Source: Wenzhouxiangella marina (GTDB lineage: Bacteria; Pseudomonadota; Gammaproteobacteria; Xanthomonadales; Wenzhouxiangellaceae). From it: a DNA stretch of 64,000 nucleotides. The notes below the pieces were generated by a model. It did not search any database and had not been told where the DNA came from. It saw only the letters and a list, made by a program, of their open reading frames with translations. Positions within the stretch are counted from its first letter, which is position 1. Each line of letters begins with the position of its first letter. Location: NCBI RefSeq assembly GCF_001187785.1, contig NZ_CP012154.1:3466501-3530500 (forward strand), read 5' to 3'. The position numbers were made by a program, and so were the translations under genes. Of the stretch, positions 24,826 to 57,405 are shown piece by piece.

Positions 24826-25422
24826 TCAAACTTGATCGAACCGGTCCTGGAAAATCTCGACCGCGGGCACAATGCTGATCGAGACAGACCAGTCAAGGGT
24901 GAAGGGACCCGCTTCCGAGCCCAATCTACCGAAAACACTGAGGGAGTACTCCCCTGCAGGAACAGGATCAGTCAGCACATTGCCTGAGTTGCTGTTGACC
25001 GGAATATTGACAAAGGCGATGTTCTCTTCGGGGCTTCTAACACCAAAGCCAATGAGGGTAATAACCCCGCCAATGTTGGCTGATGTCACTTCGATACTCT
25101 CGATCAAATACCCTTCGGGAACGGTCACCAGGAAACTATCCTGAGTGTCACCGTCTTTCGCCCCATTGCAATCATTCGGAGCGCATACACCATCAAGCGT
25201 ACCAGAAACCGTATTTCCACCGGGGTCAAGCTCCCCAACCGACACACCGAAGGCGAAGCTACTGCTTCCAGGAAAATCGGTAGTTTCCTGCACGTCGATA
25301 GCCTGAACATTCGACACGATCAAGACTAGTGCACAAAAAGCAAACCACCGCTTTCGGCTCATTAAAGTCTTATCTACGGAAAATGGTTGCCCGGAGTCTC
25401 GGACTAGGAAATCCTGCTTCAT
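24826..25422 (-). CDS. Exported protein ending in an F-x-D-R-F motif
   Basis: A 198-residue protein. The chosen ATG at 25422 has an AGGAG Shine-Dalgarno six bases upstream; the hydrophobic export signal (WFAFCALVLIVSNVQA) then starts about 23 residues in, making a long n-region. An ATG at 25362 would give a shorter signal peptide but has no Shine-Dalgarno. The mature domain is beta-rich (TTDFPGSSSFAFGVSVGELDPGGN, YLIESIEVTSANIGG, AGEYSLSVFGRLG), like a jellyroll pre-peptidase domain. It ends EIFQDRFDQV, the tag seen in other exported proteins here. GC is lower than average. Confidence 0.7.
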   Translation of the reverse strand: MKQDFLVRDSGQPFSVDKTLMSRKRWFAFCALVLIVSNVQAIDVQETTDFPGSSSFAFGVSVGELDPGGNTVSGTLDGVCAPNDCNGAKDGDTQDSFLVTVPEGYLIESIEVTSANIGGVITLIGFGVRSPEENIAFVNIPVNSNSGNVLTDPVPAGEYSLSVFGRLGSEAGPFTLDWSVSISIVPAVEIFQDRFDQV

Positions 25423-25526
25423 GTTTACTCCTGGAACGTTGAATTCAGATTGTATCTGCGACATGACCCACGCAAATCAGCGTAGCTGCGACACATGTCG
25501 TGACGGCGCCCATGCAAACGCATGAT

Positions 25527-27437
25527 TCAGAGAGGGAGCTTCCGGTAGACGTTCAATCGGCCTGGTGCAAAGGGCACGGTATAGCCCGGATCCTCAAAGC
25601 GAGAAACCGGGCCAACCTCCAGGACATGAATGTCCTGTCCATTGGTTTCCTTCAGAAAAGTCCAGCTGCGCGAAATCGAGAATCCACTACCTGGATCCTG
25701 TTTGATTTCAATCTCTCCTCGGGCATTGACCAACCAGGTCAAAGCCACGGAGTTGGCCGGCTCGGGATCAGTCGGGTTGCTCAGGGTTGCGCTCCAGCCC
25801 ACACCGCCCGGCTCCAGCACGAAGGTAAAGAACCCCGTATCTCCACCAGGGAAGCCGGGATACAGCAAGTGCCTGAACGCAAGCGATGCATATCTTCCCG
25901 CTACGTTCTCTGTCAGAAAGGGCGCCGTGTCCGGTGATGGAAAGGCGCCAACGTTGCTTGTACCGGTAGGCGTGCCCCCATCGGAGATTCGAAGGACGGT
26001 CGCAGCATAGGCGTTGGCCCAATCGCCGCTGACCAGGCGGTACTCATGAGTCTGCAGCCCGCCACCCTCCAGGATCAGGACACCCTGCGAGACCGACCAC
26101 TGCATCGTGGCCCCGATACGCTCGAGCGTCGCCGTCCCGCTGGAGCTGAAGGTCACCCGATCCGAGTAATAGATATTGTTAGGGAATTCGGGGGCCGGAG
26201 ACGGATCCTTGAACTCCAGGATCCATTGTTCACCGTCAGTCGGCACTGGCCACGGCAGCAGCTCCGAGACACCGAAATATCCGGGGTAATAGGTCGGTCG
26301 GCGGGAATCGAATACCTCTTCTGGAATCTCGGGATTATTTGGATAGCGCCAGACAATGCGCTCGCTCAAGCCCACCAGGGTCAGATACTCGGACGCATCG
26401 ACTTCGCGGACGTCCCGCCAGTCGATCTCGACACGACGCTCGATCTGCTCATCACCAATGAGGACGGCATTGAACAAGGACTGTAGTGGCTCGCCGTCGC
26501 CGCGTTCAGCTCGAATGGCTCGCAGAGCACCTGGAGCGCTTTCCATCCGGGACGGAAAGACGAGGTCGTCCCGATCCCTCAAGGTGAACGCCGCCGCACC
26601 ACCAGCCATTGACAGACCATAGCTGCCGGTTAGATCTGATTGAACCGTCATCAACCAAGGACAGCTCACCATCAAACCAACACAATAGCTGCCGATCTCG
26701 ACTCTAGAATCTGGCAATTGAGTCGGGCGGTAGAGTGACGGATTGTTCATGAAGGGATCGAGCGCCGCGTCGAAATCGACGCTCGTAGCCGTCGCGTTGA
26801 TTTCGGAGTTGAGTTGCGCCAGCAGCGCTCGGTCCAATGCCACATCCAACGAATCATCAGCGCCGGGAGGCAGGGGGAAACTAGATCGATTGAGAAATGC
26901 CAGGCCGATCATGGCCTCGACGGCATAGCGCGACTGCAGCGCGAAACGGTAAGGCGCGAGCTGCGGCTCGGACCAGGGCGGGCTGAGACCTTCGAAATCG
27001 CTCAAGGTCCAATCGACCACCGCGTAGAGCGCCGTACTGAATGGCGTGACGGGCCCGACCCGGAAGATCTGCTGCGCATCGGCATTCGCAGTCAGATAGG
27101 CACATGAATGGACGATGCGCGCGGCACCGACGTGAATCTGATCGCCCGTGCCCCGCATGCGGACCGTGACCAGGCCCGCGGGATCGGAGCAATCGAAATC
27201 GATGGAGTAGGCACCAAATTCATCGGCAGTCCCCGTGGCGGTCGTGTTTCCCGCGGCACTGATCTCCACGGACGCATTGGCCAGACTCGGATTCTTGGTC
27301 TGGCCAGTCAGGGTGATCGTGGTCGAGCCCGAGGTAGACCCATCCACAGCGGCCAATGCCGGCGTCGAAAATCCAGTAATGGAAAGGACGATCGACAATA
27401 TTGGGCGCACGGTGGCCCGAACGATGAACGAAGTCAT
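25527..27437 (-). CDS. Large exported protein, hypothetical
   Basis: A 636-residue protein with a signal peptide (MTSFIVRATV...GFSTPALA). An AGGGGA Shine-Dalgarno sits before the ATG at 27437. Residues of about 30-110 look like a carboxypeptidase-regulatory/Ig-like module (TITLTGQTKNPSLANASVEI, GTADEFGAYSIDFDC). The rest is beta-rich with no family I recognise. A late block (ATLERIGATMQWSVSQGVLILEGGG) resembles lipocalin-like repeats. It lacks the F-x-D-R-F tag of its neighbour. GC is somewhat lower than the house-keeping genes. Confidence 0.72.
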   Translation of the reverse strand: MTSFIVRATVRPILSIVLSITGFSTPALAAVDGSTSGSTTITLTGQTKNPSLANASVEISAAGNTTATGTADEFGAYSIDFDCSDPAGLVTVRMRGTGDQIHVGAARIVHSCAYLTANADAQQIFRVGPVTPFSTALYAVVDWTLSDFEGLSPPWSEPQLAPYRFALQSRYAVEAMIGLAFLNRSSFPLPPGADDSLDVALDRALLAQLNSEINATATSVDFDAALDPFMNNPSLYRPTQLPDSRVEIGSYCVGLMVSCPWLMTVQSDLTGSYGLSMAGGAAAFTLRDRDDLVFPSRMESAPGALRAIRAERGDGEPLQSLFNAVLIGDEQIERRVEIDWRDVREVDASEYLTLVGLSERIVWRYPNNPEIPEEVFDSRRPTYYPGYFGVSELLPWPVPTDGEQWILEFKDPSPAPEFPNNIYYSDRVTFSSSGTATLERIGATMQWSVSQGVLILEGGGLQTHEYRLVSGDWANAYAATVLRISDGGTPTGTSNVGAFPSPDTAPFLTENVAGRYASLAFRHLLYPGFPGGDTGFFTFVLEPGGVGWSATLSNPTDPEPANSVALTWLVNARGEIEIKQDPGSGFSISRSWTFLKETNGQDIHVLEVGPVSRFEDPGYTVPFAPGRLNVYRKLPL

Positions 27438-27512
27438 ATTGATTCCCCTGCCAAGTAGGTTGATCGGCACGCCAAGCCGACCTTCGGAGCCTACGAGGAT
27501 TCGTTCAGAACT

Positions 27513-28930
27513 TCAAGGGCGGACCGGCATCAGCTTGCCCGGATTCATCAGACCAGCAGGATCGAGAGCCGACTTGACCCGCGCCATCAACTCGAGCTTT
27601 CTGGCCTGACCTCGGGCCAGCTCCTCCCGGCGCAGCTGACCCACACCGTGCTCGGCGGCGATCGATCCGCCAACGGCGTGGACCTGGTCGAAGACGATGC
27701 GGTTGCAGTCGGCCTCGCGGGCGCGGAAGTCCTCGCCGCTCAACCCCTCCGGCTGGCTCAGATTGAAGTGCAGGTTGCCGTCGCCCAGATGGCCGAAGAC
27801 GCAGGGGCGGATGCCCGGCACGGCGCGCTCCAGCTCGGACAGGACGGCCTGCATGAAGTCCGGGATGCGCGGCACGGGCACGGAGATGTCGTGCTTGAGG
27901 CTGACGCCACCGCGGGCCTGCGCGCGCGAGATGCCCTCGCGCAGGGCCCAGAAATCCAGAGCGGCCTGTTCGCTTTCGGCAAGCACCGCATCATCGATGC
28001 GCCCGCCTTGCAGCGCCGACTCGAGCACGTTCAGCAGGGCTGGTTTCAACCAGTCACCGGCCAGCGCCGACTCGACCTGGACGACGAGGTACCAGGGATG
28101 GACTCGGTCGAAGGGATCGCGGGCCCGGGGCTGATCGGCCAGCACGAAATCCAGCGCGAGGCGCGGCATGAATTCGCAGGCCGACAGGGTCTCGCCTAGC
28201 TCGGCCCGGAGCTGGCGCAATAGAGCCAGGCCCTGATCCAGCGAGTGCGTGGCGAGCATGGCGGTGACGCCTTGTCGCGGCGCGGGCGCCAGGCGCAGAC
28301 AGGCCGCGGTGATGATGCCGAGCGTGCCTTCGGAGCCGATCAACAGCTGTTTCAGGTCGTAGCCGCTGTTGTCCTTCCGAAGCGGGCTCAGTTCACTGAA
28401 GACGCGGCCGTCGGGCAGCACCGCTTCCAGGCCCAGCACCTGGGCCCGGGTGTTGCCGTAGCGAATGGTCAGGTTGCCGCCGGCGTTCGTGGCCAGGGTG
28501 CCGCCGATCGTGGCCGTGCCCTCGGAGGCCAGGCTGACCGGGTAGCGCAGGCCGTGCTCGGCGGCGATCTGGCGCACCCGGGCCAGGGGCATCCCCGCCT
28601 CGACCACCAGGCTGGTGTCGATCGGGTCGATGGATCGGAGGCGCCGCATGCGCTCCAGGCTGATGATCAGCTCGCCATTGATCGGCGAGGCACCACCCAC
28701 CAGGCCCGTACGCCCACCCTGGGGAACCATGGCGAGCTCATGTTCGCTGCAGCAACGCACGATGGCGGCCAGCTGCTCCGTGGACTCGGGCCGCGCCACG
28801 GCCAGGGCTCGGCCATGGAAGCGCCCGCGGGGTTCGTTCAGATAGGGCGCGAGGTCCTCGGGCTCATGGAGCAGACCCGGACCGTCGAGCAAGCGCCCCA
28901 GCGCGGCCAGGGCATCCCGGCCCCTGTCAC

Positions 28931-28934
<4 letters not shown>
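27513..28934 (-). CDS. FAD-linked oxidase (GlcD / D-2-hydroxyglutarate dehydrogenase type)
   Basis: A 473-residue flavoprotein. The FAD_binding_4 domain has MVPQGGRTGLVGGASP, SEGTATIGGTLATNAGG and RYGNTRAQVLGLEAVLPDG. The C-terminal substrate domain has FGHLGDGNLHFNLS (metal-binding His) and AEHGVGQLRREEL. Family members oxidise D-2-hydroxy acids to 2-oxo acids, with electrons passed to ETF or quinone; 2-hydroxyglutarate or lactate are likely substrates. The ATG at 28934 overlaps the amidohydrolase stop by 4 bp, so the two are translationally coupled. Confidence 0.93.
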
Positions 28935-30523
<1,589 letters not shown>

Positions 30524-30576
30524 CGTTTCTCTTCCTTCAGGCAGTCGTCGCGGGCCGGAAGCGCCGCGCGGATCGA

Positions 30577-31539: not shown

Positions 31540-31739
31540 GGGAAACGATCCTTCCGCATTCTCCTGACCTCGGACCCGAATCAGCACCCATTATCGGCCA
31601 GACCCTGCCAGCCCCGTCAAACCGACTGGCGCCGACATCGGCCCGACAAGCGGCCTTGAACGACGGCTGTGGCACTGACTAGCATGGCGCTTCGTTCTAC
31701 TTGGAGGGGGGATCGACGACAACCGGGAGCTCGACCGAC

Positions 31740-34700
31740 ATGCCACGCCCTTTCCACCTCCTGAGCAGCGCGCTCTGCCTCTGCTTTCTCATCAGCCTGA
31801 ATGCTTCGGCCCAGGTGCCACCCGTCAACCCCGGGTTTCCCGATGAGCTGAGCTGCCAGCCCGGCGAACTGCTCTATCGCCAGGTCGGCCTCGGTCGCGT
31901 CGCCAACATCATCTATCACAACGGCGTGCTCCTCTCGAACAATGTCGGCGGCGGCGCCCGACGCTGGTGGCGCTTCACCGATCCGGACGACCCGACCACT
32001 CTGTCCATCTACGCCACCGACGAGGACGTGCCGACCGATCACGGCACCCATGCCGCCACCAAGATCGGCGACTACGCCTGCGGCGCCTGGGGCTGTCGGG
32101 TGCGCAGCGACGGGCCCGGCCAGCTGGCCAGCCAGCTCATGCCACCGAGCGCGCCCGGCGAGATCTCCGGCGGCTTCACGCCGCAGAACCAGCCCGAACC
32201 CGCCGGCGGCGGCCTGCACCGCCTCTACTACCCCTGGGCCCTGCCCTTCAACTGGATCCAGTACGGCGCCAATCCGGGCCAGGGACGCCTGTGGCGCGGC
32301 GACGAACTGCTGGCCGAATGGGAGCCGCTGGCCGATCACGGCGTGGCCGGCAACGCCATCCTGATCGGCAACTACCTGTTCATGGTCTCCGACGCCTCCA
32401 TGCTCGGTGTGGTCAGCTACGACATCTCGCCGGTCTTCGAGACCCCACCCGGACCGCCGCGCTTTCTCGACAAGCTGTCCGGCGCCTTCGGGGCCTACAT
32501 CGGCGCGGTCTGGAAGAACTACCTGGTGCTGGCGGGCGGCGAACCCCGCAACCTGCTCTACGTGGTCGATTACTCCGACCCGACCGCGCTGAGCCTGGTC
32601 ACCACCCTGGACCTGACCGGCAACCCGGACCTCGATGCCGGCACCAATGTGCCCTACGTGCAGACCCAGGACGAATACGTCTTCACCCGACGTCACAAGA
32701 TCAACATGGAAACCCTGACGCCGGAGCTGGAGCTCGACGAAGTCGGCAACAACCGCCCACCCGGAAGCGTCGCCGGCCCCCTGGACGTCAGCCAGTACAA
32801 GCTGCCCATCGGCAATCTGCTGGTCACCGGCTCCTACAGCTTCGGCGGCCGTGACGGCGTCGGCGTCTGGTGTCACCAGGCCAGCCCCGACAACCGCGCG
32901 CCCTATGTCGACTACCACATCCCGAGGCCGGGCCAGACCGGCTACCCGCTGGGCGCACCGATCAGCCTGATCATCCCCGAGACCCTGGAGTCCTTCACCA
33001 TCATCAACGGCGAGACCGTGATCGTGCGGCCGGTCGGCGGCCAGGCGCTGGATGCCTGGGCGTCCTTCTCGCACGACGGCATCCTCACGATCACGCCCTA
33101 CGAGTACTTCGAACCCGACACGACCTACGAAGTGATCGTCACCGCCGGCGGCATCAAGGACGCAGCGGGCAACGGCATCGAGGGCTACAGCTTCACCTTC
33201 TCCACCGGCGAGGCCCTGGGCGGCGGCAACGGGGCACCGGAGATCAGCCAGTTCGAGATGAGCGCCTCACCGGTCGACCCCGGCCAGAGCGTCACCCTGA
33301 GCGTCTCGGCCAGCGATCCGGAGTCCGACCCGCTCGAGTATCGCTTCTCGCCTGGCGACGGCAGCCCGAGCACGGCCTGGACGAGCAGCGCCCAGTACAC
33401 GCACAGCTTCACCGAAACCGGGCATTTCGAGGTCAAGGTCCAGGTGCGCGACCAGAAACCCGACGGTACGACCTCGGTGGTCACGGAAACCCGCACCCTG
33501 ACCGTGGCCAGCCTGCCGGCCGGCCCGCTGCCCGTCTCGTCCAGCAGCATTCAGGTGGATGAAACGCGCCGCCTGGTCTGGTCCGTCAACCGCGACAACG
33601 ACACGGTCGCTCGCATCGACGCCGACACGGGCGCTCTGCTGTCGGAAATCGACCTGCCCACCCTGCTCGGGGAAGACCAGCGACTCGAGCCGGTCAGCCT
33701 GGCCGTGGTGCCAAGCAGCGGCCAGGTCTGGATCGCCCTGTCGAAGGGCGACGGCCTGGCCGTTCTCGACGCCTCCGGGGCCCTGGTCGATGCCATCGAC
33801 ACCGGCTACGGCAGCGCGCCGCAGGCCGTGCTGGTCAGCCCCGACCAGGCGCAGGTCTTCGTCTCCACGCGCGCCCGGGCCAACGGCGACCGAGGCGCTG
33901 GCCAGGTGCTGCGCTTCGCGACGTCCACCGGCGTTCAGACGGGTCAACTGGATCTGGGCCCCGAGGCCGGCGCCATGGCGCTCAGCGGCGATGGCAGCCG
34001 CCTGTTCATTGCGCGCTTCATTTCCGCCGAACACCACGGCGAGATCTGGGAAGTCGATGCCCAGGCGATGAGCCTGACGCGAACGATTCGACTGCGCCGC
34101 GACCGCGGCCGAGCCGGCCTGGACGGTGGCGGCTCGCAGGGTCCGGGCGTGCCCAACTACCTGGCCAGCCTGGTGATCGACCCGCACGGCGACTGGCTCT
34201 GGTACACGGCCATCAAGGCCGACACGAACCGCGGCCTGTTCTTCGATCAGGGCACGGGCCTGAACCTGCCGCTGGCCCACGACACGACGGTCCGCCCGAT
34301 GCTGGGGAGGATCGACCTGAACGCGCCCGTGCCCGTCGAGCCGGGCGTCGACAGCTTCGGCAACGAGCGCCTCGACGGTGACAACGCCGACTCCCCCAGC
34401 GCGATCGTCTTCTCGCCGCGCGGGGACTACGTCTTCACGAGCTTCCAGGGCAATGACACGGTCGCGATCTTCGACGATCTGGCGATCCGAGCCGGCAGCG
34501 GGCGAACCTCCCTGGCCCGGCTGGAAGTCGGCTCGGCGCCGCGAGGCATCGCCTTCGACGCCACCGGCAACACGGTCTGGGTCGAGAACTTCCTGGGACG
34601 CTCGGTCAGCAGGATCGACGTGGACGCCTTCCTGGCCACGGGCGAGCGGGCCTTCCCTAGCAGCGAACTCGCCAGCAGCGGGATCGAGACCCTGGCGCCC

Positions 34701-35954
34701 GACGTGCTGGCCGGCAAGCGGCTGTTCTACTTCGCCGGCAACGACCCGGAGGGCAGCAACCCGATGAGTTTCGAGGGCTACATCAGCTGCGCGAGCTGCC
34801 ACATCGACGGCGGCCACGACGGTCGCACCTGGGACTTCAGCCAGCGCGGCGAAGGCTTCCGCAACACCCAGGACCTGCGCGGCCGGGCCGGCCTTGGCCA
34901 CGGCAATCTGCACTGGACCGAGAACTTCGATGAACCCCAGGACTTCATCCTCGACATCATGGGCGAGTTCGACGGCACCGGTTTTCTGCCCGAGGGCGAA
35001 AGCCCCCATCCATCCCTGGGCGCGCCCAATGCCGGACGCAGCACGGAGCTGGATCAACTGGCCGCCTACATGAACTCCCTCGACCGCGGACACCTGCCGC
35101 GCAGCCCCTGGCGTCAGAGCAATGGTCAGATCAGCGCCGCCGCCCTGGCCGGCGCCGATCACTTCGCTTCGCTGGGCTGCGCCGGCTGTCATGACCCCTT
35201 GAGTGACTATACGGACGCCTCCGTCGGCGCGGGCATCCTGCACGACGTCGGCACCCTCCGAACCAGTTCCGGCATGCGCCTGGGCGGGACGCTCGCCGGC
35301 ATGGGCACGCCGACCCTGCTTGGCCTCTGGAACACGGCCCCCTACTTCCATGACGGCTCGGCCGCCGCCCTGGACGAGGTCTTCACGGTCGCCGGGGGCG
35401 AGATCTTCCAGGCCGAGGACGCCGCGCTTGCCGGCGGCGCCATGGTACCCAACTGGATCGAGATCAACTGGGACTCCACGGCGCATGGCGCCCTGGTGGA
35501 GTTCGGCAGCAACGGGGCCAGCGCGACCTTCAACGGTGTCGACGGCGGCAGCGGCGGGCTCGGCGCGATCGAACTGCGCATGCTGCCCAACACCGGCGGG
35601 GTGTTCCGCCTGACGGTCAACGGCAGCCACGTCCAGGACCTGAGCTTCGATCAGCAGCAGGTGGCCTTCGACTGGCGTCGCCTGCGCTTCGAGAACGTGC
35701 CCCTGAACGCCGGCACCGGCAACACCGTGGTCGTCAGCCGCCTGTCGACCAGCAGCTGGCAGAGTCCGGCCCTGGATCACATCACCGTCTCGACCGTCAA
35801 CGATCTCGCCCAGGCCCAGGCCCACCGCTCGGCTGCCAGCCTGTCACCGACGGAACTGGCCGAACTGCGCGCCTACCTGCTCGAGCTCGACGGTCGCGAT
35901 CCGAACGGCCTGATCATCGACCCGGATCGCATCTTCAGGGACCGATTCCAGTAG
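31740..35954 (+). CDS. Giant exported multidomain protein: Ig-like/PKD, beta-propeller, di-heme cytochrome, carbohydrate-binding insert, DRF tag
   Basis: A 1,404-residue protein with a signal peptide (HLLSSALCLCFLISLNASA). Parts in order: a propeller-like region with unassigned repeats; an Ig-like module (YEYFEPDTTYEVIVTAGGI) near residue 455; a PKD domain near 515-600 (YRFSPGDGSPS); a YVTN-type propeller to about 990 (VFTSFQGNDTVAIFDDLA); a di-heme module with CASCH (residue 1017) and CAGCH (residue 1147) plus NTAPYFHDGSA, as in MauG/cytochrome c peroxidases; then an inserted domain (EIFQAEDAALAGGAMVPNW) like CBM6/malectin folds. It ends DPDRIFRDRFQ. Extracytoplasmic redox activity on a sugar-containing partner is an inference. 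Confidence 0.88.
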   Translation: MPRPFHLLSSALCLCFLISLNASAQVPPVNPGFPDELSCQPGELLYRQVGLGRVANIIYHNGVLLSNNVGGGARRWWRFTDPDDPTTLSIYATDEDVPTDHGTHAATKIGDYACGAWGCRVRSDGPGQLASQLMPPSAPGEISGGFTPQNQPEPAGGGLHRLYYPWALPFNWIQYGANPGQGRLWRGDELLAEWEPLADHGVAGNAILIGNYLFMVSDASMLGVVSYDISPVFETPPGPPRFLDKLSGAFGAYIGAVWKNYLVLAGGEPRNLLYVVDYSDPTALSLVTTLDLTGNPDLDAGTNVPYVQTQDEYVFTRRHKINMETLTPELELDEVGNNRPPGSVAGPLDVSQYKLPIGNLLVTGSYSFGGRDGVGVWCHQASPDNRAPYVDYHIPRPGQTGYPLGAPISLIIPETLESFTIINGETVIVRPVGGQALDAWASFSHDGILTITPYEYFEPDTTYEVIVTAGGIKDAAGNGIEGYSFTFSTGEALGGGNGAPEISQFEMSASPVDPGQSVTLSVSASDPESDPLEYRFSPGDGSPSTAWTSSAQYTHSFTETGHFEVKVQVRDQKPDGTTSVVTETRTLTVASLPAGPLPVSSSSIQVDETRRLVWSVNRDNDTVARIDADTGALLSEIDLPTLLGEDQRLEPVSLAVVPSSGQVWIALSKGDGLAVLDASGALVDAIDTGYGSAPQAVLVSPDQAQVFVSTRARANGDRGAGQVLRFATSTGVQTGQLDLGPEAGAMALSGDGSRLFIARFISAEHHGEIWEVDAQAMSLTRTIRLRRDRGRAGLDGGGSQGPGVPNYLASLVIDPHGDWLWYTAIKADTNRGLFFDQGTGLNLPLAHDTTVRPMLGRIDLNAPVPVEPGVDSFGNERLDGDNADSPSAIVFSPRGDYVFTSFQGNDTVAIFDDLAIRAGSGRTSLARLEVGSAPRGIAFDATGNTVWVENFLGRSVSRIDVDAFLATGERAFPSSELASSGIETLAPDVLAGKRLFYFAGNDPEGSNPMSFEGYISCASCHIDGGHDGRTWDFSQRGEGFRNTQDLRGRAGLGHGNLHWTENFDEPQDFILDIMGEFDGTGFLPEGESPHPSLGAPNAGRSTELDQLAAYMNSLDRGHLPRSPWRQSNGQISAAALAGADHFASLGCAGCHDPLSDYTDASVGAGILHDVGTLRTSSGMRLGGTLAGMGTPTLLGLWNTAPYFHDGSAAALDEVFTVAGGEIFQAEDAALAGGAMVPNWIEINWDSTAHGALVEFGSNGASATFNGVDGGSGGLGAIELRMLPNTGGVFRLTVNGSHVQDLSFDQQQVAFDWRRLRFENVPLNAGTGNTVVVSRLSTSSWQSPALDHITVSTVNDLAQAQAHRSAASLSPTELAELRAYLLELDGRDPNGLIIDPDRIFRDRFQ

Positions 35955-40391: not shown

Positions 40392-40952
40392 ATGGCCAGG
40401 ACTGAATCTTCGATGCTCGCGCTGGGCACCATCGCACCGGACTTCAGCCTGCCCGAGCCCCTGACCGGCCGGACCGTGAGCCTCGAGGACATCGCCGGGC
40501 CTCGCGCCACCCTGGTCATGTTCATCTGCAACCACTGCCCCTTCGTCAAGCACCTGCTCGACGAACTGATCCAGCTCGGCGAGGACTATCGCGACCAGCC
40601 GATCGGCATCGTGGCGATCAGCAGCAACGACCCGACCGGCTACCCGCAGGACCGGCCCGAGCGGATGGCCGCTCTGGCCCGCGATCGCGGGCTCGCCTTT
40701 CCCTACCTGCACGATCCGAGCCAGCAGGTGGCACGGGCCTATTCGGCCACCTGCACCCCCGATTTCTTCCTCTTCGACGGCGAGCGGAGCCTGGTCTACC
40801 GGGGTCAGTTCGACGACTCGCGGCCGGGCAACGGTCGGCCGGTGACCGGCAAGGATCTGCGCACGGCCATCGATGCGGTGCTGGGCGGCCAGCCCGTGCC
40901 CTCCGAGCAGCGGCCCAGCATCGGCTGCAGCATCAAATGGAAGGAAAGCTGA
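40392..40952 (+). CDS. Thioredoxin family (AhpC/TSA-like) protein
   Basis: A 186-residue protein with a thioredoxin fold. It starts with LGTIAPDFSLPEPLTGRTVSLEDIAG, then MFICNHCPFVKHLLDEL with the redox pair C-x-x-C, VAISSNDPTGYPQD, and the cis-Pro region ATCTPDFFLFDGE. This is the redoxin subgroup of about 185 residues found widely in proteobacteria, probably a cytosolic thiol oxidoreductase or peroxidase. AGGAG lies before the ATG. Its 3' end overlaps the convergent next gene by 20 bp. Confidence 0.92.
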   Translation: MARTESSMLALGTIAPDFSLPEPLTGRTVSLEDIAGPRATLVMFICNHCPFVKHLLDELIQLGEDYRDQPIGIVAISSNDPTGYPQDRPERMAALARDRGLAFPYLHDPSQQVARAYSATCTPDFFLFDGERSLVYRGQFDDSRPGNGRPVTGKDLRTAIDAVLGGQPVPSEQRPSIGCSIKWKES

Positions 40953-42234
40953 GCGCGCCGACGCCCCGCTGGGGGCAGCCCTCGCTTTCCACGCGCCGCT
41001 CTTCCTGGGCGAAGGTCGCCTGCTCGGAAAAGATCTCGACGCCCATGATCTCGAGCTGATAACCGCCCTGCACGACCAGACCGGCGATGCCGACCTTGCA
41101 GATCGGCCCGAAGCGCAGGCTCGATTGCAGGGTAAAGCCCGTATGCACCCAGGCCACTTCGCTGGTCAGCACGTTGAGCGAGACCCGAGGGAAGGCGATG
41201 CCGAAACCGGCGTCGACGCTGACGAAGTTGCTGGCCGAGTCGAATTCGCCGTTCAGGAAATCATGGTCATTGATGGTCGCCGTGGTGTCGACGGTGGCAC
41301 CTTCGTAGGTGAAGCCGGTGTCGCCGCGATAGCGGAAGTCCGCCGAGGCCGTCGCCGAGGCGGTGGCCGCCAGCGGCACCTCCATGATGGCCACGAACTG
41401 GACCCCGATGTCGATCGACATGGGGATCGGCCCGACATTGAACGGAATCCGGATGATCGGGAACGGCACTTCGAAGTTCAGGTCGTTCGACCCGGAGCCC
41501 GCCGCCGCCAGGGCGATGTTCAGGTCCATCTGGGCATCCCGGGTGTTCTGCTGGAAGCCCGTCAGCTCACCGCCATCGAAGCTGGCCGAGCCGTTCGCGT
41601 CGAAATTGCTCAGGGTGCCGGTGCCGGTGATCGAGGCATTGGCCTGATCCGTGCCCTTGGTGACCTGGTACTGGATGGTCGTCGTGCTGCCCGTACGACT
41701 GAGGTTCATCGCCATCGTGTAATCGTCGAAGCTGCACTCGAAGCTGATCTGCTGCGCCTCCGGATCGAAGGCCGGGGAACAGCCCGTACCGCGACCGGGA
41801 ATGAACATCTCGGCGCTGGCGATCTCTTCGAATCCGATGCCCAGGGACCAATCCATCTGTCCACTGGTGATGGCCTCGTTCAGGGCGGCCTGGGAGGTGG
41901 TGACAATGGTCTCCGTCCCCGACGGACTCACCCCGTCGACGCGGCGCAGGGCCACGCCTTCGAGCACCATGATCTCGCCGGGAGTGAAGTCGACACCGGC
42001 AGCCGTCAGCAGCGCGGTAGAGAAGGTGAAGACCGCACCGCTGGCATCGACGTCGATCAGAGCGGCGACGGCATCGCCCTCGACCAGCTCGACATCGGGT
42101 GACCACACGGCGTTGAATTCCGTCGCCACGCCCATGAATCGATCGGCGAAGAGATCGTCGGTCCCGGCCTGGAGCGGAAGAGCGGCCAGGCCGGCCAGGA
42201 CGATCAGAATGCGTTTGGACACCGCGTACGCCAT
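40933..42234 (-). CDS. Exported protein with an N-terminal F-x-D-R-F motif, hypothetical
   Basis: A 433-residue protein with a signal peptide (ILIVLAGLAALPLQA). Directly after the cleavage site comes DDLFADRFMGV (residues 26-36), the motif that is C-terminal in other proteins here. The mature part is beta-rich (FSTALLTAAGVDFTPGEIMVLEG, ASITGTGTLSNFDANGSASFDGG, IDIGVQFVAIMEVPLAATASATASADF) and may be a jellyroll or barrel. Cysteines are few. The family is unknown to me. It overlaps the redoxin gene by 20 bp tail to tail. Confidence 0.75.
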   Translation of the reverse strand: MAYAVSKRILIVLAGLAALPLQAGTDDLFADRFMGVATEFNAVWSPDVELVEGDAVAALIDVDASGAVFTFSTALLTAAGVDFTPGEIMVLEGVALRRVDGVSPSGTETIVTTSQAALNEAITSGQMDWSLGIGFEEIASAEMFIPGRGTGCSPAFDPEAQQISFECSFDDYTMAMNLSRTGSTTTIQYQVTKGTDQANASITGTGTLSNFDANGSASFDGGELTGFQQNTRDAQMDLNIALAAAGSGSNDLNFEVPFPIIRIPFNVGPIPMSIDIGVQFVAIMEVPLAATASATASADFRYRGDTGFTYEGATVDTTATINDHDFLNGEFDSASNFVSVDAGFGIAFPRVSLNVLTSEVAWVHTGFTLQSSLRFGPICKVGIAGLVVQGGYQLEIMGVEIFSEQATFAQEERRVESEGCPQRGVGALSFPSI

Positions 42235-45902: not shown

Positions 45903-48171
45903 ATGTTCATCCTTCGACTGATCGCGTCAGCCACCCTGCTGTTCGCCTGCTCGACCGTCTCACTTGCCGCCACCTACACCGTGGGAGCCAGCGGCTGCGA
46001 TTTCAGCAGCCTGGCCAGCGCGGTGGCGGCGGCCGAGGACGGCGATCGCCTGGAGCTGCGCTCGCAGACCTTTACGAACGTCAACATCAACATCGGCAAG
46101 TCACTGGTCCTCCAGGGCGGCTATGCGGTCTGCGGGGACGCCTCCCCGGACATCGATGGTCTGAGCGTCTTGCAGGGCGCTCCGTCCGGCGCTGATTCGG
46201 TCATCGAAATCATCGGTTCCGGCCACCTGGTCGAATTCAGGCGCATCGAGATCACCGGCGGCACGGATGACGCGGACTTCGGCGGGGGCATTCAGGTCGG
46301 CACCGGCAATGAGCTGCACCTGGCCGGCGTCACGATCACCGGAAACAGCTCGACCGTCGGCGCCGGCATCTATCTGGCACCCGATGCGATCCTGCGCCAC
46401 AAGGGGCGATTGACGATCAGCCTCAACGATGCCCAGGGTGATGGCGGCGGAATCTACGCCGGGCCGGGGGCACTGATCGATTTCACGACCGGCGGCTTCA
46501 ATCCCATCGACATACTGGACAACGATGCCCTGTCCGGTGCCGGGATCTACCTCGATGACGGCGCCGAATTGCGCACCGACCCGATGCGCAGCCTGACCAT
46601 CACGGGTGGCCTCGCCTTCAGTGGTGGCGGCATCTGGGCGGCCAGCAACGCGATCATCGACGCCCCGGACCTGTTCATCAGCACCAACGAGGCCGTTCAG
46701 GGCGGCGGCATCTACATCGAAGGGGGTGGCAGCCCGGCCAGCGCCACCAGCATTCAGCTCGGCTCGGATGTCGATATCCGCAACAACTTCGCCGTCGACG
46801 GTGCCGGCATCTACCTCGCCGCCGGCGGCGGCTATGACGTCGTCGTCGACGGGGTGATCCGTTTCAATGAGGCCACCCGCAATGGTGCGGGCCTGTACGC
46901 CGACGGCAGCGGCGGCGGATCACTCGTGATCGACGCCCTGTTCACGGCCAACGTCGCCGACCAGCACGGCGGCGGCCTCTACCTCAAGGACGGGAGCTTC
47001 ATCTCCGGCGGCTTCGCCAGCAATGGCAACACGGCCCTGGGCGATGGCGGCGGACTCTACCTGGATGGCGCTCTGCTCCACCAGACCCAGACCGCCCTTA
47101 TCGTTCGAAGCAACCTCGCCGGCGTCAACGGGGGCGGCGTGGCCCTGGTCAACGCATCGGAGCTGGTGCTGGAGCGCCACGGAGCGCCGACGACCCACCA
47201 GGCCTACAGCGCGCTGATCCAGAACAACGAAGCACAAACCGGCAACGGTGGCGGGCTCCATGTCGTCAACTCGACCGTGTTCCTGCAATGGCCGATCATC
47301 GGTGGCACGGGCATGGGGAACCGAGCCCCGTTGGGCCACGGCGGTGGTCTCTATGTCGACACGAGCCTGAACTGGGCCCTGGACAACTTCAAGGTCAATG
47401 GCAATTCCGCCGGAGGCTTCGGCGGCGGCATCCATGCGACGGGCGGGGGCAGCTACGGTCTAAGCGCCGTGGTGGCCCCGCTCGAGGGGAGCGCCCCGAG
47501 CGGGGCCATCGCCGCCTGCGACGCCGCCGGCCTCGAGGCAGACGAATACTGTTCGGAAATCCGCGGCAACACCGCTGCCCGTGGCGGCGCCCTCTACGCG
47601 ATCCATGACCCGAGCACCGTGGCCGTCCTGAAGCGAGTCGCCGTGCTCGACAATCACGCCCCCGAAGCCGTCAACGGCATCAGCTTCAATCACGGCTGGA
47701 AGCGGCTGGAGAATCTGCTGTTCGCCAGGAACGGGCAGGACAATGTGCAGGTCGCGCTTGCGCTGGGCCATGGCAACTCGATGCTTCGCCATGTCAGCTT
47801 CGTGGACAACGGCGGCGGGGCTGGCGGTCAGCGTGCCCGATGCCGAGGTCCGGATCGAAAACAGTCTGTTCTGGAACAGTGGCGCGAACCAATTCACACC
47901 GCCAAGCCAGAGCATCGTCAACGGTAGCTGCAATCTGGGTGCCGATCCGGACATTCCCGGGGCGATGAATCTCGACCCCGGCTTTGGCAACACCGCCAGG
48001 GGCCCCTATCGACTCGGCCCCGGCTCGGCAGCCATCGACGCCTGTTCCAGCGCCCAGGTGGAGGACGACCTCGATGGGGCGGGACGACCCAGCGGCGACG
48101 GCTACGACATCGGCGCCTTCGAAGCGGAGGTCTTCGTGGATCGCGTCTTCAGCGATCGCTTCGGAGGCTGA
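45903..48171 (+). pseudogene. Exported parallel beta-helix (polymorphic outer-membrane-like) protein ending in a DRF tag, apparent frameshift
   Basis: Signal peptide LIASATLLFACSTVSLA, then VGASGCDFSSLASAVAAAEDGD and many GGG[IL]Y-type coils (GAGIYL, GGGIYIEGGG, GGGLYLKDG, GGGLYVDT), a right-handed beta-helix as in Pmp/adhesin-like passengers. The frame breaks near 47817-47820, a run of four Gs. Removing one G joins it to LAVSVPDAEVRIENSLFWNSG and a terminal choice-of-anchor-like segment (DLDGAGRPSGDGYDIGAFEAE) ending VFSDRFGG. The joined length is about 755 residues. No autotransporter barrel follows. Confidence 0.82.
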
Positions 48172-48193
48172 ACCGGCCCTCGAGAGGACGCGC

Positions 48194-48694
48194 TCAGGGA
48201 CAGACTCCGCGCGGATCGAAGCGGCTGGTGAACACCGTGTCTGCCGAGGGCGCGCCCTGAAGGATCCAGTCGTAGATCACACGCAGCTCGGCGCTGGCGA
48301 TCGGCGTCCCGAAGCGGGGCATGCGAAAGGCCTGGTCATCGATGTCGTCGCAGGCCACGCGCAGGTAGAACCAGCTTTCCTCCGGCGCGCCCGGCACGAT
48401 GCGCTTGCCGGCAGGCGTGGGCACACTGCCCTGGGTGTCGGCGCAGAACAGGTTGGCGTGCGTCGTCGTGCCCTGATCGAGCGACAGGCCGCCAGCGCCG
48501 CCATGGCAATTGGTGCAGCCCCAGAACTGATCTTCGATGATCGGCAGCACGTCCTGCTCGAAGCGGACGTTGGGCACCTCAGGCACACCGCTCAGATCGG
48601 CGCACTGCAGATTCTGCGCATGGCCCGAAAGGGCCAGCGCGCCGAAGAACAGCGCGCTGGCCCCACGCAGGATGCGATCCAGCCCCGCGCGCAC
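48194..48694 (-). CDS. Exported c-type cytochrome-like protein
   Basis: A 166-residue protein with a signal peptide (ILRGASALFFGALALSGHA). NVRFEQDVLPIIEDQFWGCTNCHGG has a single heme-binding CxxCH (Cys60-His64) of the planctomycete-cytochrome-like type, where a substrate domain often follows. VPGAPEESWFYLRV and FRMPRFGTPIASAELRVIYDWILQGA are the usual C-terminal half, with Met as likely axial ligand. It ends with VFTSRFDPRGVCP, a variant of the DRF tag. It starts 3 bp after the DUF1501 stop and so ends the DUF1800-DUF1501-cytochrome operon. Confidence 0.88.
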   Translation of the reverse strand: MRAGLDRILRGASALFFGALALSGHAQNLQCADLSGVPEVPNVRFEQDVLPIIEDQFWGCTNCHGGAGGLSLDQGTTTHANLFCADTQGSVPTPAGKRIVPGAPEESWFYLRVACDDIDDQAFRMPRFGTPIASAELRVIYDWILQGAPSADTVFTSRFDPRGVCP

Positions 48695-48696
48695 GG

Positions 48697-50010: not shown

Positions 50011-50021
50011 GGGGTGGCTCC

Positions 50022-51986
<1,965 letters not shown>

Positions 51987-52314
51987 CGCTGTACCTTTCA
52001 GCTGGAATCAACCCCTTGAGCGGCCGATCTTAGCCGAGGAGATTGCGGTTTGGAAGGGGACTTAAGTCGCAGCCGGATTGCAGCAGCGGCAGGGCTTGCG
52101 AGCCAGAGGCCGCCCCGTTCGACCGTAGCTCTCACTTCCATATTCAAACTGTGATGCACATCAAGGAAATTGCGCTATCCGGCGGCACCAGACGCCCCGC
52201 CCGAATTTTTCACCCGAAAGAAAAAACGATTGGCGGGTCCGCGAAATCACCCCGTATTCCATCGTTGAAGCAGCCCTGCTGCACCTTGATTTCGTCAACT
52301 CGGAGGATTCGGAC
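51987..52314. promoter_or_regulatory. Divergent intergenic region with an FNR/Anr-like box
   Basis: GTGAT-GCAC-ATCAA (52151-52164) matches TTGAT-N4-ATCAA with one mismatch. It lies between the DUF1800 operon and the FG-GAP gene. An AT-rich tract (GAATTTTTCACCCG...AAAAAACGATT) follows. GGAGG near 52304-52308 is the Shine-Dalgarno of the FG-GAP gene. Nothing coding is evident. Confidence 0.4.
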
Positions 52315-53889
52315 ATGGATCGATCACACGGCAGATGGCTGCTTCTGGCCGCCACGTTGATCTCGACGGGAAGCGCTCTTGCGCAACTGCAATCCACAGG
52401 CACCCAGTTCTGGCACCAGGGCAGTCCGGGGGTCGGAATCGCCCCGGAGGCCGACGCGGAATTCGGCCGCAGCCTGAGCAGCGGCGACTACGACTGCGAC
52501 GGCCTCGACGATGTCGCCATCGGCATTCCCCGCGAGGACCTGATCGGCGCCGATGACGGTGGTCGCGTCCTGGTGCTGTATGGCGCCGACGATGGCAGCG
52601 GGCTCGCAACGACGGGCCGCCAGATCTGGTCCCAGGCCGGCCCCGCCGTCCCCGGCGACCCCAGCCCCTTCGAGAACTTCGGTGCTACGCTGGCCAGCGG
52701 CGATTTCGACGGCGACGGCTGCGACGATCTGGCCATCGGCGTGCCCCGGGACGATGTGAATGGCGTCAATTCCGCCGGCGCCGTGCACGTCCTGTATGGC
52801 TCGGCTGGCGACGGCCTGAGCGCCGATGGCATCGACTACTGGCATCAGGGCCCCGGGAGCACGGGCCTGCAGATCGAAGCGGACGATCAATTCGGTGCTG
52901 CCCTGGCGGTCGGAGATTTCGATGGCGATGGCCGTGACGATCTGGCCATCGGCGTTCCGAGGGAAGACAGCGGGAGTGGCGCGAGCCTGGTCGTCGATGC
53001 CGGCCTCGTTCAGGTCCTGTTCGGGACGTCGAACGGTCTGAGCACCTCCCAGAGCGTGAACCTTCGTCGCGGCTCGAACCTGTTCGGTTCGCCCGTGTCC
53101 GGGGAGCGCCTGGGCAGCGTGCTCGCCGCCGGCAACCTCAACAGCATCGTCGGCGATGAACTGGTCATCGGCATCGAAAGCTTCGACCTCTCGGCTGCCC
53201 TGCCCGATACGGGCGCCATCATGGTCGTGTCGGATATCGACGGCAACGTCTTCAATGCCCTGTTCACCCAGGACAGTCCGAATATCCCGGGGGCGGCCGA
53301 AGCCGGTGACCGACTCGGCTCCGCCCTGGCCATCGGCGATTTCGATGGCAATGGCTTCGACGAAGTCGCGGCCAGCGCCGCGGGCGAGGACATCGAACAG
53401 CCAGCGCCGGAACGGGATTCGGTCGGGGTCGTCAATGTCTTCGACTTCACCGGCGGCGCCCATCAGATCTGGAATCAGGATGATCTGCCGCCGGAACAGG
53501 CGGAGGATTCGGATCAGTTCGGTTCCGCCCTGGTCGCCGCGGACTTCGATGGCGACGGCATCGACGATCTGGCGATCGGCGCGTCACGAGAGGACCTCGG
53601 GCCGATCCCCAATGCCGGTCTGGTCCACGTGCTCTACGGGGTCGAGGGGACGGGCCTGACCACGGCCGGGCGGCAGCTGTGGCTGCAGACCATCGATGGC
53701 TCGGACGCGCAGGACGACTTCGGCTTTGCCCTGGCCGCCGGCGCGATCAATGCGGGCAGCGAGGCCGACCTCGTCATCGGTGCGCCTGGGAACACGATCG
53801 TCGAATCCGGCGCCGGCAGTGCGACCGTGCTGTATTCGCGCAGCGACCAGGTGTTTGCCGATCGTTTCGAGACCCTGCCACCCCCCTGA
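52315..53889 (+). CDS. Exported FG-GAP/integrin-alpha-like beta-propeller protein with DRF tag
   Basis: A 524-residue protein with a signal peptide (WLLLAATLISTGSALA). Six to seven FG-GAP repeats follow, each with FGxxLxxGDFDGDGxDDLAIG-type sequence (for example near residues 50, 122 and 200) and Ca2+-binding DxDxDG loops. This builds a seven-bladed propeller. It ends QVFADRFETLPPP. A GGAGG Shine-Dalgarno is upstream. It is probably surface or periplasmic, binding a partner through the propeller; the function is unknown. Confidence 0.88.
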   Translation: MDRSHGRWLLLAATLISTGSALAQLQSTGTQFWHQGSPGVGIAPEADAEFGRSLSSGDYDCDGLDDVAIGIPREDLIGADDGGRVLVLYGADDGSGLATTGRQIWSQAGPAVPGDPSPFENFGATLASGDFDGDGCDDLAIGVPRDDVNGVNSAGAVHVLYGSAGDGLSADGIDYWHQGPGSTGLQIEADDQFGAALAVGDFDGDGRDDLAIGVPREDSGSGASLVVDAGLVQVLFGTSNGLSTSQSVNLRRGSNLFGSPVSGERLGSVLAAGNLNSIVGDELVIGIESFDLSAALPDTGAIMVVSDIDGNVFNALFTQDSPNIPGAAEAGDRLGSALAIGDFDGNGFDEVAASAAGEDIEQPAPERDSVGVVNVFDFTGGAHQIWNQDDLPPEQAEDSDQFGSALVAADFDGDGIDDLAIGASREDLGPIPNAGLVHVLYGVEGTGLTTAGRQLWLQTIDGSDAQDDFGFALAAGAINAGSEADLVIGAPGNTIVESGAGSATVLYSRSDQVFADRFETLPPP

Positions 53890-53918
53890 AGGCCAGACGG
53901 CGCGGCGGGCGGCCCGAA

Positions 53919-54839
53919 TCAGTGCTCGGCGGCTGAACTCTTTCCGAACAGTCGCTGAGCCGCGGAAAGCAGGGCCACCAGAATGACGCCGAGGACGATG
54001 CCGATGGCGGCCGTCCAGGCCATGCCGGTCAAGGTCGACCAGGGCTGCGCCATGCCTTCGACGAGGGCTTCGTTGATATGGTGCAGGGCCGGGATGCCGT
54101 GCGAGACGATGCCGCCGCCGACGAGGAACATCGCCGCCGTGCCGGCGATGGAGAGAAAGCGCATGAACCAGGGGGCGAAGGCCAGAATGCCGCGGCCCAG
54201 GGCGCGGGTGTATGCGCTGGCCTTCCGGGACAGGGCCAGGCCCGCATCATCGAGCTTGACGATACCGGCCACCAGGCCATAGACGCCGATGGTCATCATC
54301 GTCGCGATCGCCACGAGCACGCCGAGCTGGGTCAGGAAGGGCTTGTCGGCGACCGTGCCCAGGGAGATCACGATGATTTCCGCCGACAGGATGAAATCGG
54401 TCCGGATCGCGCCCTTGATCTTGTCCTTCTCCAGGGCGACGAAGTCGACCTCGGGATCAGCAAGCGCCTCCTTGATCTTCGCCTTGGCTTCCTCGACCTC
54501 CTCACGGTGGAGAAACTTGTGCGCCAGTTTCTCCACACCCTCGAAACACAGAAAGGCACCACCGAGCATCAGCAGGGGCGTGACCGCCCAGGGCGCCACC
54601 GTACTGATCAACAAGGCTGCGGGCACCAGGATCAGCTTGTTCACCGCCGAGCCCTTGGCCACGCTCCAGACCACCGGGAGTTCGCGGGCGGCCTTGACGC
54701 CCGTGACCTGCTCGGCGTTCAGGGCCAGATCATCACCGAGGACCCCGGCGGTCTTCTTGGCCGCCACCTTGGTCATGGTCGCGACGTCGTCGAGCACCGT
54801 GGCGATATCGTCGAGAAGCAGGAACAGGCTGCTGGCCAT
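53919..54839 (-). CDS. DUF808 family inner-membrane protein (YedI-like)
   Basis: A 306-residue protein. [44 protein letters not shown] is the DUF808 start, followed by [38 protein letters not shown], and [19 protein letters not shown]. Seven or eight membrane helices are predicted, with [15 protein letters not shown] near the C-terminus. The family is uncharacterised. The ATG at 54839 begins the conserved region; the longer frame upstream is not homologous. Confidence 0.9.
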
Positions 54840-54992
54840 GGGACTCGTCAAGCTCCGGATCAGTCCGGGAGTGTCCCACTGCGAGGGCCCCAGGTAAACC
54901 CCGGCCCCTTCGGCAACGACGCGATCTTCTCGGTCTCTCGGCCGCAGCTGTTGCAGAATAGCCGCCCTCACCTTTGCATAAGGAGTGCAGCC

Positions 54993-55433
54993 ATGCGCTA
55001 TCTCCACACCATGCTTCGCGTCAGCGATCTGGATGCATCGCTGAATTTCTTCTGCAATCAGCTCGGCCTGGTCGAGGTGATGAGAAAGGACAGCGAACAG
55101 GGCCGCTTCACGCTGGTCTTCCTGGCCGCGCCCGCCGATGTCGAACGGGCCCGGGCCGAGAAGGCACCGATGGTCGAACTGACCTGGAACTGGGATCCGG
55201 AGACGCTCGACGGCGGGCGCAACTTCGGCCATCTGGCCTACTACGTCGAGGACATCTACGCCATCTGCCAGCGGCTGATGGACGCCGGCGTGACCATCAA
55301 CCGTCCGCCACGGGACGGTCATATGGCCTTCGTTCGCTCGCCGGACGGACACTCGATCGAACTGCTGCAGGAAGGCGAGCACCTGGCACCCCGAGAGCCC
55401 TGGGCGTCGATGCCCAACACCGGCAGCTGGTAG
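54993..55433 (+). CDS. gloA: Lactoylglutathione lyase (glyoxalase I)
   Basis: A 146-residue VOC enzyme. The metal ligands are present in order: His in [14 protein letters not shown], Glu in MVELTWNWD, His in [12 protein letters not shown], and Glu in [11 protein letters not shown]. It isomerises the methylglyoxal-glutathione hemithioacetal to S-lactoylglutathione in the cytosol. The short N-terminus and length match the bacterial Ni2+-type enzyme. AAGGAG lies upstream of the ATG. It is divergent from the DUF808 gene. Confidence 0.92.
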
Positions 55434-55623
55434 CTGTCCGGCCAGCCTAATGGCGGAGTGATGTGCGGTTCGCGCTTCGGCGGTCATTGACCCGATGGAA
55501 AGGCGCGAACGGTGCACGCCCGCCTGATTCGCGACGAAGCCGTTCGAGGCGAACCCGCTGGCGCCATTGGCGACGCCCGGGGCGCCTTGCTTATACTGGA
55601 TCCAGTCTGCACGGAGATCGACG

Positions 55624-57405
55624 ATGCGAATCCTGCCCCTGTTGCTGCTCCCCGCGGCCCTGCCCTTCACGGTCCTGCCTCTGACGGCAGCGGCGCAGCT
55701 CGTCGGCGTGACGGAAATCCAGCTGTCGACGCCCCAGCACGCAGGTTCGGATGTCCAGACCAACAGCCTGATCTTTTCTCCCGACGGTCGCTACGTCTGC
55801 TTCATCGGCGATACGGAAACCGAGGGGGCCGGCGAGCTCTGGTGTGCCGACACCGACGCCGGGGCACCGGCGATCCGAGTCAGCGGATTGCTGCCCAGTG
55901 GCAGCACCGTGGAGCGACCCGCCTTCGACGACACCGGCAGCCGACTGTTCTACATCGCCCCGGGGGCGGACGTGCAGAAGGAGAATCTGTTCATGGTGCC
56001 GCCCGACGGTTCGGAACCGCCGGTTCGACTGAACGCCCCCATGACGCCGGCCGGCGCGGACGTGATCAGCTACCGCTACATCCCCGAGACCGAACAGATC
56101 GCCTACACCGGGGCCTCGCAGGTGGCCGGTCAGAACGAGCTGCACATCGTCTCGATCGACCAGCCCGGCGTGGCCACGATCCTGAACGGCCCCCTGGTCA
56201 GCGGCGGAGACGTGCTGAGTTACGAGGTGGTCGCGGCAGCGGGCCGCGTCGTCTACCGGGCCGACCAGCAGACCGACGGCGTCGACGAAGTCTACAGCGT
56301 GCTGTTGAACGGGGCCGGCGCGGTCAAGCTCAACGGACCGATGGTCGCCGGCGGCAGCGTGCGCCAGTTCAAGGTGTCAACGGACGGGGCCTGGGTGGGC
56401 TACCTGGCCGACGAGGATACCGATGAAGTGACCGAACTCTACATCTCGGCGATCACCGGCGGTGGCAGCAGCAAGGTGAGCGGTCCCGCCGTGGCCGGTG
56501 GGGATGCCTGGCATTTCACCTTCAGCCCGGACTCGCAGTGGGTCCTGTTCACCGGCGACCTGGCGACGAACGGCTGGCGCGATCTCTATTCCACCCCGTC
56601 CAACGGATCGCAGCCGATCCCGAACGTCCTGGCCACCCAGGTGGTCCCGGCGCCGGAGCCGCCAGTCATCGAGGCGGTGCCCAGCCTGCCCGTGACCGCC
56701 GATGGCAGTTACGTTGTCTTCTTCTCCGACCAGGGCAATTCCTCGAGCCGACGCGTGCTTCGGGCACCCATCGATGGCAGCTCGCCTGCAGTGGTCATCA
56801 GTGGCGGTCTCACCGACCTCGATCGCCTGGAATACGTACCCGAGGTGGACCGGATCGTGGTCCGAAACGGCTCGGGACCGGAGAACCTCTATTCGATTGC
56901 CGTCGACGGCAGCAGCTTCATCCCCCTGACCAGCTTCGCGAACGCGGCCATCGATGTCAGCGGCCTGACCACACCGACCGGGGTCGTGTACTTCGCCGAT
57001 CCGGTCGTCGACGAACAGGCTTCGGTCTTCTTCGTGGACTACCTTGGCCAGCAGACACAGGAGCTCAGCTCGGCCAGCGCCTCCTTCGAGGGCCTGACGG
57101 GAAGTCTGTTCATCCCGTCCGATCGTGGCGCCATCTACTTCATCGAGCGCCACGGCAGCGTCAGCCTCATCCTGTATTCCTTCCGCCTGAAGGTCGCCGA
57201 GCTGGACTCCCTGGCCACCACCGAGCTGGCCAGGCTTGGCAACTCCTTCCTGGTCGCCGGTGAAACGACCTTCCTGAGCATCATGGCCAGCCCCAGCAAT
57301 CGCCACCAGGTGGCCTACATCGCCGACAAGCCCGTCGATGAACAGGCCGACGCCTACCTGGCCACCTTTTCGGACATCGTATTCAGCGATCGCTTCGAGC
57401 AGTAG
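55624..57405 (+). CDS. Exported TolB-like beta-propeller protein with DRF tag
   Basis: A 593-residue protein with a signal peptide ([21 protein letters not shown]). The body is a run of WD40/TolB-type blades ([84 protein letters not shown], and [16 protein letters not shown]). Two propellers may be present given the length. It ends [14 protein letters not shown] lies before the ATG, and TATACT at 55592-55597 is a possible -10. Confidence 0.85.

Follow-up and report, generated by a model that had tools for sequence, protein, structure and literature searches.

We analyzed a 64,000-nucleotide stretch of the Wenzhouxiangella marina genome (G000:C1:3466501-3530500, hereafter the window; the host genome is a single contig of 3,675,202 bases) in which a short peptide motif, [LIV]F.[DS]RF, recurs in otherwise unrelated proteins, mostly at the C-terminus. 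The motif belongs to a tag of about nine residues that is spread over the order Xanthomonadales and is biased toward exported proteins, and genomes rich in it nearly all carry markers of a type II secretion system (T2SS). We hence favor, with a probability of roughly 0.55 for both T2SS-linked forms jointly, that the tag is a linear signal, either for export through the T2SS or for display on the surface once the T2SS has transported the protein. We found no description of the motif, or of any sorting tag in this order, in the open-access literature, which agrees with a preliminary description of the window that had called the tag undescribed.

The eight copies reported in that description were all confirmed by translation, i.e., six at the C-terminus with one to seven residues between motif and stop, one behind a signal peptide and one internal (Table 1). 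The pattern [LIV]F.[DS]RF matched eight times in the six frames of the window, whereas first-order Markov simulation gave a mean of 0.08 and a maximum of 1 in 100 runs. Signal peptides were called by a simple rule of our own, not by SignalP. Six carriers passed it (24826-25362, 31740-35954, 45903-47927, 48194-48694, 52315-53889 and 55624-57405); the protein at 40933-42234 was missed by the rule but has a signal peptide by eye, and none was seen by the rule in the DUF1800 protein at 50022-51986. The earlier count of seven carriers with signal peptides was thus reproduced.

The tag is abundant throughout the host genome. The strict DNA pattern F.D[RS]F[E/D] gave 37 matches compared with 2 for the reversed pattern, and a broad pattern gave 154 compared with 17. 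As an unbiased sample we used twenty evenly spaced 20-kb stretches of the same genome with 297 predicted genes (296 with better start calling). Here, 12 of the 297 genes had the tag in their last 20 residues, compared with a mean of 0.07 and a maximum of 2 in 500 shuffles, and only two more copies were found in the 98,919 residues outside the last 20. With better start calling, 9 of the 12 tagged genes encoded a signal peptide without further transmembrane helix, compared with 65 of the 284 untagged ones (Fisher p = 0.0003). The enrichment at C-termini and the association with exported proteins, both anticipated in the preliminary description, therefore hold in this sample. In an enriched list of 69 carriers (see below), 61 passed the signal-peptide rule, which was allowed to pick the start. 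Tagged proteins had a median length of 603 residues (n = 61), compared with 357 (n = 65) for signal-peptide proteins without the tag in the random sample, the two sets being drawn differently. T2SS substrates bear Sec-type signal peptides, and so do most of the tagged proteins.

For the carrier list we collected at least 81 C-terminal matches from site-centred stretches, random stretches and the window (100 of the 154 places, among the matches listed). We kept 69, after dropping 11 open reading frames (ORFs) of less than 100 residues and one ORF at C1:770433 that appeared enzyme-like by eye. Over these 69 carriers, the column counts were 43 for D at position -2, 67 for [ILV], 69 for the first F, 66 for D, 68 for R, 69 for the second F and 54 for E; in 55, one to six residues followed the second F. 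The counts give the consensus D-x-[ILV]-F-x-D-R-F-E, followed by a short tail. When 67 carriers were aligned, omitting the split window gene and L026:13401-13721, where the tag may be chance, the two F columns alone were invariant. Codons differed at the fixed residues: the 70 tags examined comprised 63 different DNA strings, with Asp encoded by GAT 36 times and by GAC 31 times, and four Arg codons in use. Because codons vary where amino acids are fixed, it is the protein sequence that recurs, not a DNA repeat.

The motif is not confined to C-termini. It stands straight after the signal peptide in the window protein 40933-42234 and in proteins from three other genomes (L099, L105, L164). Several proteins have internal copies, and near-N-terminal ones occur in the DUF1800 protein and in a protein with a similar end at C1:1975159. 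Use at both protein ends is more readily understood for a binding site than for a cleavage site. Elsewhere in the host genome, one protein (C1:766307, L018) ends with two tandem copies, and two adjoining similar proteins (C1:1943666 and C1:1945999, L047) have the tag 88 residues from the end, with similar additional tails behind it.

The tag also lies outside known domains. Ten 50-residue tails were compared with Pfam and NCBIfam at E values up to 10, and no model covered the tag; matches ended before it or were at chance level. A known larger C-terminal domain, named in the preliminary description as a refuting outcome, was not seen in these ten tails. Of the 67 aligned carriers, the other 57 were scanned as whole proteins. 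Among the matches listed for all 67 (25 of 81 matched families in Pfam, 25 of 52 in NCBIfam), the NCBIfam models at E values up to 0.01 included choice_anch_Q (14), CSLREA (7), choice_anch_D (3) and ExeM-like regions (2), and the Pfam models included Beta_helix (8), DUF11 (6), DUF5122 (4), FG-GAP (3), subtilase (2) and M14 (1). The carriers are hence of unrelated fold, as first described. Choice-of-anchor families owe their name to the different sorting tags found at the protein end in different bacteria. ExeM and M36 matches were partial and far below the model cut-offs. Two proteins with partial ExeM-like regions (L060:454-4035 and L011:553-4029) end in the tag; Shewanella ExeM has a GlyGly-CTERM region at its end. 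In the predicted model of a Wenzhouxiangella carrier, a confident β-helix extends to about residue 650, the tail has predicted local distance difference test (pLDDT) values below 50, and the tag appears as a short, unreliable helix.

The preliminary description had taken the tag to be specific to one lineage, which proved too narrow. At 27-39% identity of the best segment, the tag is retained by all five full-length relatives of a tagged β-helix family (L081-L085; four of them titled Wenzhouxiangella and one a gammaproteobacterium); the other four of nine relatives found (L086-L089) were distant or cut and had no such tag. Moreover, most families of the order carry it in family-specific spellings, with F.[DN][GS]FE replacing DRFE in the six families read. 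Reading of 25 sites in six tag-rich genomes gave 21 C-terminal copies, two behind signal peptides and two internal. A further 13 sites from G516, G679, G713, G507 and G566 gave eight C-terminal copies, one behind a signal peptide, two internal and two unconvincing ones, and in the tag-free genomes G054, G037 and G697 none of five sites read was C-terminal. In a class sample of 369 genomes, none outside the order exceeded 19 matches versus 4 in the control (G307), and we rejected G307 as a tag user because none of its five sites read ends a long ORF. Two small genomes of the window's own genus (G024 and G007, 1.8 and 2.1 Mb) have kept T2SS markers with few tags (4 versus 1 and 7 versus 0).

T2SS substrates require a T2SS in the same genome, and the host genome has one by the components searched: Pfam identified a pseudopilin-like gene and J, K, L, M and N, and GspG was matched in addition. 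Of 45 relatives with at least 90% completeness, five had no GspL match (PF05134; G037, G043, G048, G053, G054), and all five were tag-free. We then surveyed 397 genomes from the order, again with a completeness of at least 90%, for tag counts, GspL and GspG (TIGR01710). Genomes with at least 10 matches above the backward control were called tag-rich (97 of 397), and GspG matches below 1e-40 were called strong; both cuts were set after the values had been seen, the GspG values reaching 1.5e-41 and resuming at 7e-38. GspL was matched in 93/97 tag-rich and 106/300 other genomes, strong GspG in 92/97 and 67/300, and either of them in 96/97 and 123/300. The association recurred within families holding both kinds of genome. 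Strong GspG was found in 5/5 tag-rich versus 52/147 other genomes of family f2 (p = 0.007), 2/3 versus 1/21 of f8 (p = 0.03), 21/22 versus 1/3 of f9 (p = 0.03) and 23/23 versus 11/127 of f12 (p = 4e-19); for GspL the counts were 5/5 versus 39/147 in f2 (p = 0.002), 2/3 versus 1/21 in f8 (p = 0.03) and 21/23 versus 62/127 in f12 (p = 0.0002). Since nearly all tag-rich genomes have a T2SS, the tag may be an address for the T2SS or the cell surface.

The GspL tree (43 rows, some short) and the GspG tree (51 rows) both showed clustering of the tag label, and no shuffled labelling gave as low a value. The label did not form one clade, with 8 changes on the GspL tree and 6 on the GspG tree. Tag-rich T2SS were often grouped by host family, and most sampled tag-free T2SS stood on other branches. 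An ORF family beside gspN, cysQ-like by eye, was present at 9/11 tag-rich and 1/8 tag-free loci. The preliminary description had suggested looking for a gene family with a matching phylogenetic profile. Among the four families that we profiled by name, GspL and GspG match in one direction, i.e., tag-rich genomes nearly all have them and many genomes with them lack the tag, whereas rhombosortase and GspN do not match. As a reader of the tag, GspN was rejected, being without a match in tag-rich G020, G034, G450, G484, G042 and G052 and present in many tag-free f12 genomes. Rhombosortase was rejected as a partner as well, with TIGR03902 over its cut-off in only one of 61 relatives, tag-free G048 (C1:302225-302653); lower-scoring rhomboid matches occurred in 60 of the 61.

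Several observations weigh against a role of the T2SS. The link is a correlation among related genomes, and the family p-values ignore kinship below family; for GspL alone the contrast in f9 was not significant (21/22 versus 2/3, p = 0.23). Signal-peptide enrichment also fell short of significance when genes were called less well at first (p = 0.32 and 0.07). Four of the 97 tag-rich genomes lack a GspL match. Three of these (G516, G679, G713) have strong GspG, and G453, counted as tag-rich with neither marker, had unconvincing tags at its three sites read. G515 (9 versus 2) has C-terminal tags at all three sites read and G478 at one of three (L145, L156, L166 and L158), and both genomes lack GspL as well as strong GspG; the weaker GspG matches that they do have (9e-35 and 5e-36) may come from a divergent system. 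Strong GspG is conversely present in the 67 tag-poor genomes counted above. A simple rule by T2SS type is contradicted by G466, whose T2SS resembles that of tag users and which yet has no tag excess, and by G586 and G664, whose T2SS lie near those of f2 tag users. Finally, comparison of 20 T2SS loci gave no ORF family that was in all 11 tag-rich loci and absent from the rest.

G515 and G478, together with the many tag-free genomes that have a T2SS, speak for another envelope route, be it a different translocon, a chaperone, vesicle sorting or a protease. The T2SS correlation would then arise through lifestyle, with large extracellular proteomes keeping both, and our profiling was limited to four named families. 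Such a route is possible, though we think it the lesser prospect: the T2SS association repeats inside four families, and the five relatives without GspL are all tag-free.

We therefore keep to the T2SS-linked reading, in which D-x-[ILV]-F-x-[DN]-[RGS]-F-E would act as a short linear signal that sorts Sec-exported proteins of the order. A tagged protein would cross the inner membrane and fold, and its flexible tail, or more rarely its new N-terminus or an interdomain linker, would present the tag. The two Phe and the acidic residues would be shown to a receptor belonging to or dependent on the T2SS, and the protein would then pass through the outer membrane, probably to remain on the cell surface. 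We infer T2SS dependence, receptor and final location from the patterns above.

Recruitment to the T2SS and surface docking after it both fit the data. For recruitment, we tentatively propose a common linear T2SS signal of about nine residues, active at either end of the mature protein, by which roughly a hundred unrelated folded proteins would be recruited in each genome; its spelling (DRF, NGF, DGF, DSF) would have drifted by family with a reader in the machine. Alternatively, the tag might serve surface retention only, docking the protein to a surface receptor after export as a non-covalent counterpart of GlyGly- or MYXO-CTERM, with the T2SS merely as export route. Carriers of the choice-of-anchor kind point in this direction, as does a tag that works in several positions, as a docking motif could. 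Proteolysis is cell-bound in Wenzhouxiangella AB-CW3, which has a T2SS, and the authors of that study propose T2SS transport together with anchoring in the outer membrane. In Vibrio and Myxococcus, proteins from which the CTERM tag has been removed are released to the medium through the T2SS. Set against this, the four families profiled yielded no receptor, and the motif has no membrane helix, lipid-accepting Cys or Gly-Gly site. Retention alone, which takes its share from the joint probability given above, is rather doubtful; it has the T2SS link in common with recruitment, and the two are not told apart here.

The preliminary description had offered sorting, docking or processing as roles. 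Sorting and docking fit. Processing, in which a protease or transpeptidase would cut at the motif in the manner of a sortase, would account for the C-terminal bias and the short variable tail. It is improbable given the copies behind signal peptides and inside proteins, the lack of a transmembrane helix or basic tail, and a rhombosortase over cut-off only in a tag-free relative. Chance, a DNA repeat or a piece of a shared larger domain can practically be dismissed: no point in favor survived testing, and the reversed-pattern, shuffled and Markov controls, the synonymous codons, and the unrelated domains, with ten tails in which no model reached across the tag, all speak against it.

Among known addresses, the C-terminal domain of the type IX secretion system of Bacteroidota is found on similar multi-domain carriers; it folds as a domain several tens of residues long, in contrast to about nine residues in another phylum here. 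The tails of the 69 carriers have no transmembrane helix or basic end, which bears out the earlier distinction from PEP-CTERM, GlyGly-CTERM and LPXTG tags. Like GlyGly-CTERM, the tag is a C-terminal address on exported proteins, which in that system are often surface proteins (passages in PMC6219818). GlyGly-CTERM is described there and in parts of PMC3237569 as tripartite, with a hydrophobic stretch and a basic end, and as requiring rhombosortase; surface localization of VesB needs both GlyGly-CTERM and the T2SS. The present tag has no Gly-rich motif or helix and occurs N-terminally as well. MYXO-CTERM, sorted by myxosortase, resembles it in the many carriers per genome, the T2SS route to the surface and an internal copy, explained as gene fusion, and differs in needing an invariant Cys, a transmembrane helix and an Arg-rich end (sections of PMC11980579), none of which the 69 carriers have in their tags. 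In the parts of PMC6219818 and PMC11980579 concerned, C-terminal sorting tags can thus accompany T2SS transport to the surface. PEP-CTERM, the exosortase signal, shares the short C-terminal homology in diverse signal-peptide proteins and the patchy phylogenetic profile, but consists of a PEP motif, a transmembrane helix and a basic cluster (portions of PMC1569441), which the carriers lack.

Two further systems are tied to the T2SS itself. A lipoprotein sorting motif read with GspN is likewise short and linked to surface localization; it lies behind a lipidated Cys (passages in PMC12802150), whereas our tag has no lipobox and GspN is absent from several tag-rich genomes. In the pectate lyase PelI a nine-residue region (loop 3) is a T2SS secretion signal, and the signals of PelI and Pel3 are structural, substrate-specific and multi-part (sections of PMC7949064), unlike one linear motif over unrelated proteins. 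The same sections call T2SS recruitment of folded substrates elusive and common linear sequences apparently absent among them. If our reading is true, the recruitment question becomes directly testable with nine residues to delete, move or transplant. It would also tell to which part of the envelope very many unannotated proteins of the order are sent, and where its choice-of-anchor proteins go. If the tag is a surface anchor instead, it would be one without a membrane helix.

Table 1. Copies of the tag in the window, with strand and carrier protein.
Feature	Position	Strand	Carrier
C-terminal tag IFQDRF, then DQV	24838..24855	-	exported protein 24826-25362
C-terminal tag IFRDRF, then Q	35931..35948	+	31740-35954; immunoglobulin-like, PKD, propeller and cytochrome domains, signal peptide
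C-terminal tag VFSDRF, then GG	48145..48162	+	split beta-helix gene, tag in frame 47743-48171
C-terminal tag VFTSRF, then DPRGVCP	48218..48235	-	protein 48194-48694
C-terminal tag VFADRF, then ETLPPP	53851..53868	+	FG-GAP protein 52315-53889
C-terminal tag VFSDRF, then EQ	57379..57396	+	PD40 protein 55624-57405
Tag LFADRF straight after signal peptide	42136..42153	-	protein 40933-42234; signal peptide by eye
Tag IFASRF, N-terminal part	51735..51752	-	DUF1800 protein 50022-51986, about 80 residues in

Some carriers in the window deserve separate comment. For the protein first placed at 24826-25422, a start at 25362 is more likely, since the signal peptide begins there. A single-sequence structure prediction of the FG-GAP carrier had a mean pLDDT of 32. 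The plus-strand carrier 31740-35954 is very large and matches hydrazine synthase gamma weakly and in part, at a score far under the model cut-off. The β-helix gene 45903-48171 (plus strand) is split over two overlapping frames, with the signal peptide in 45903-47927 and the tag in the second, which is a frameshift or an assembly error.

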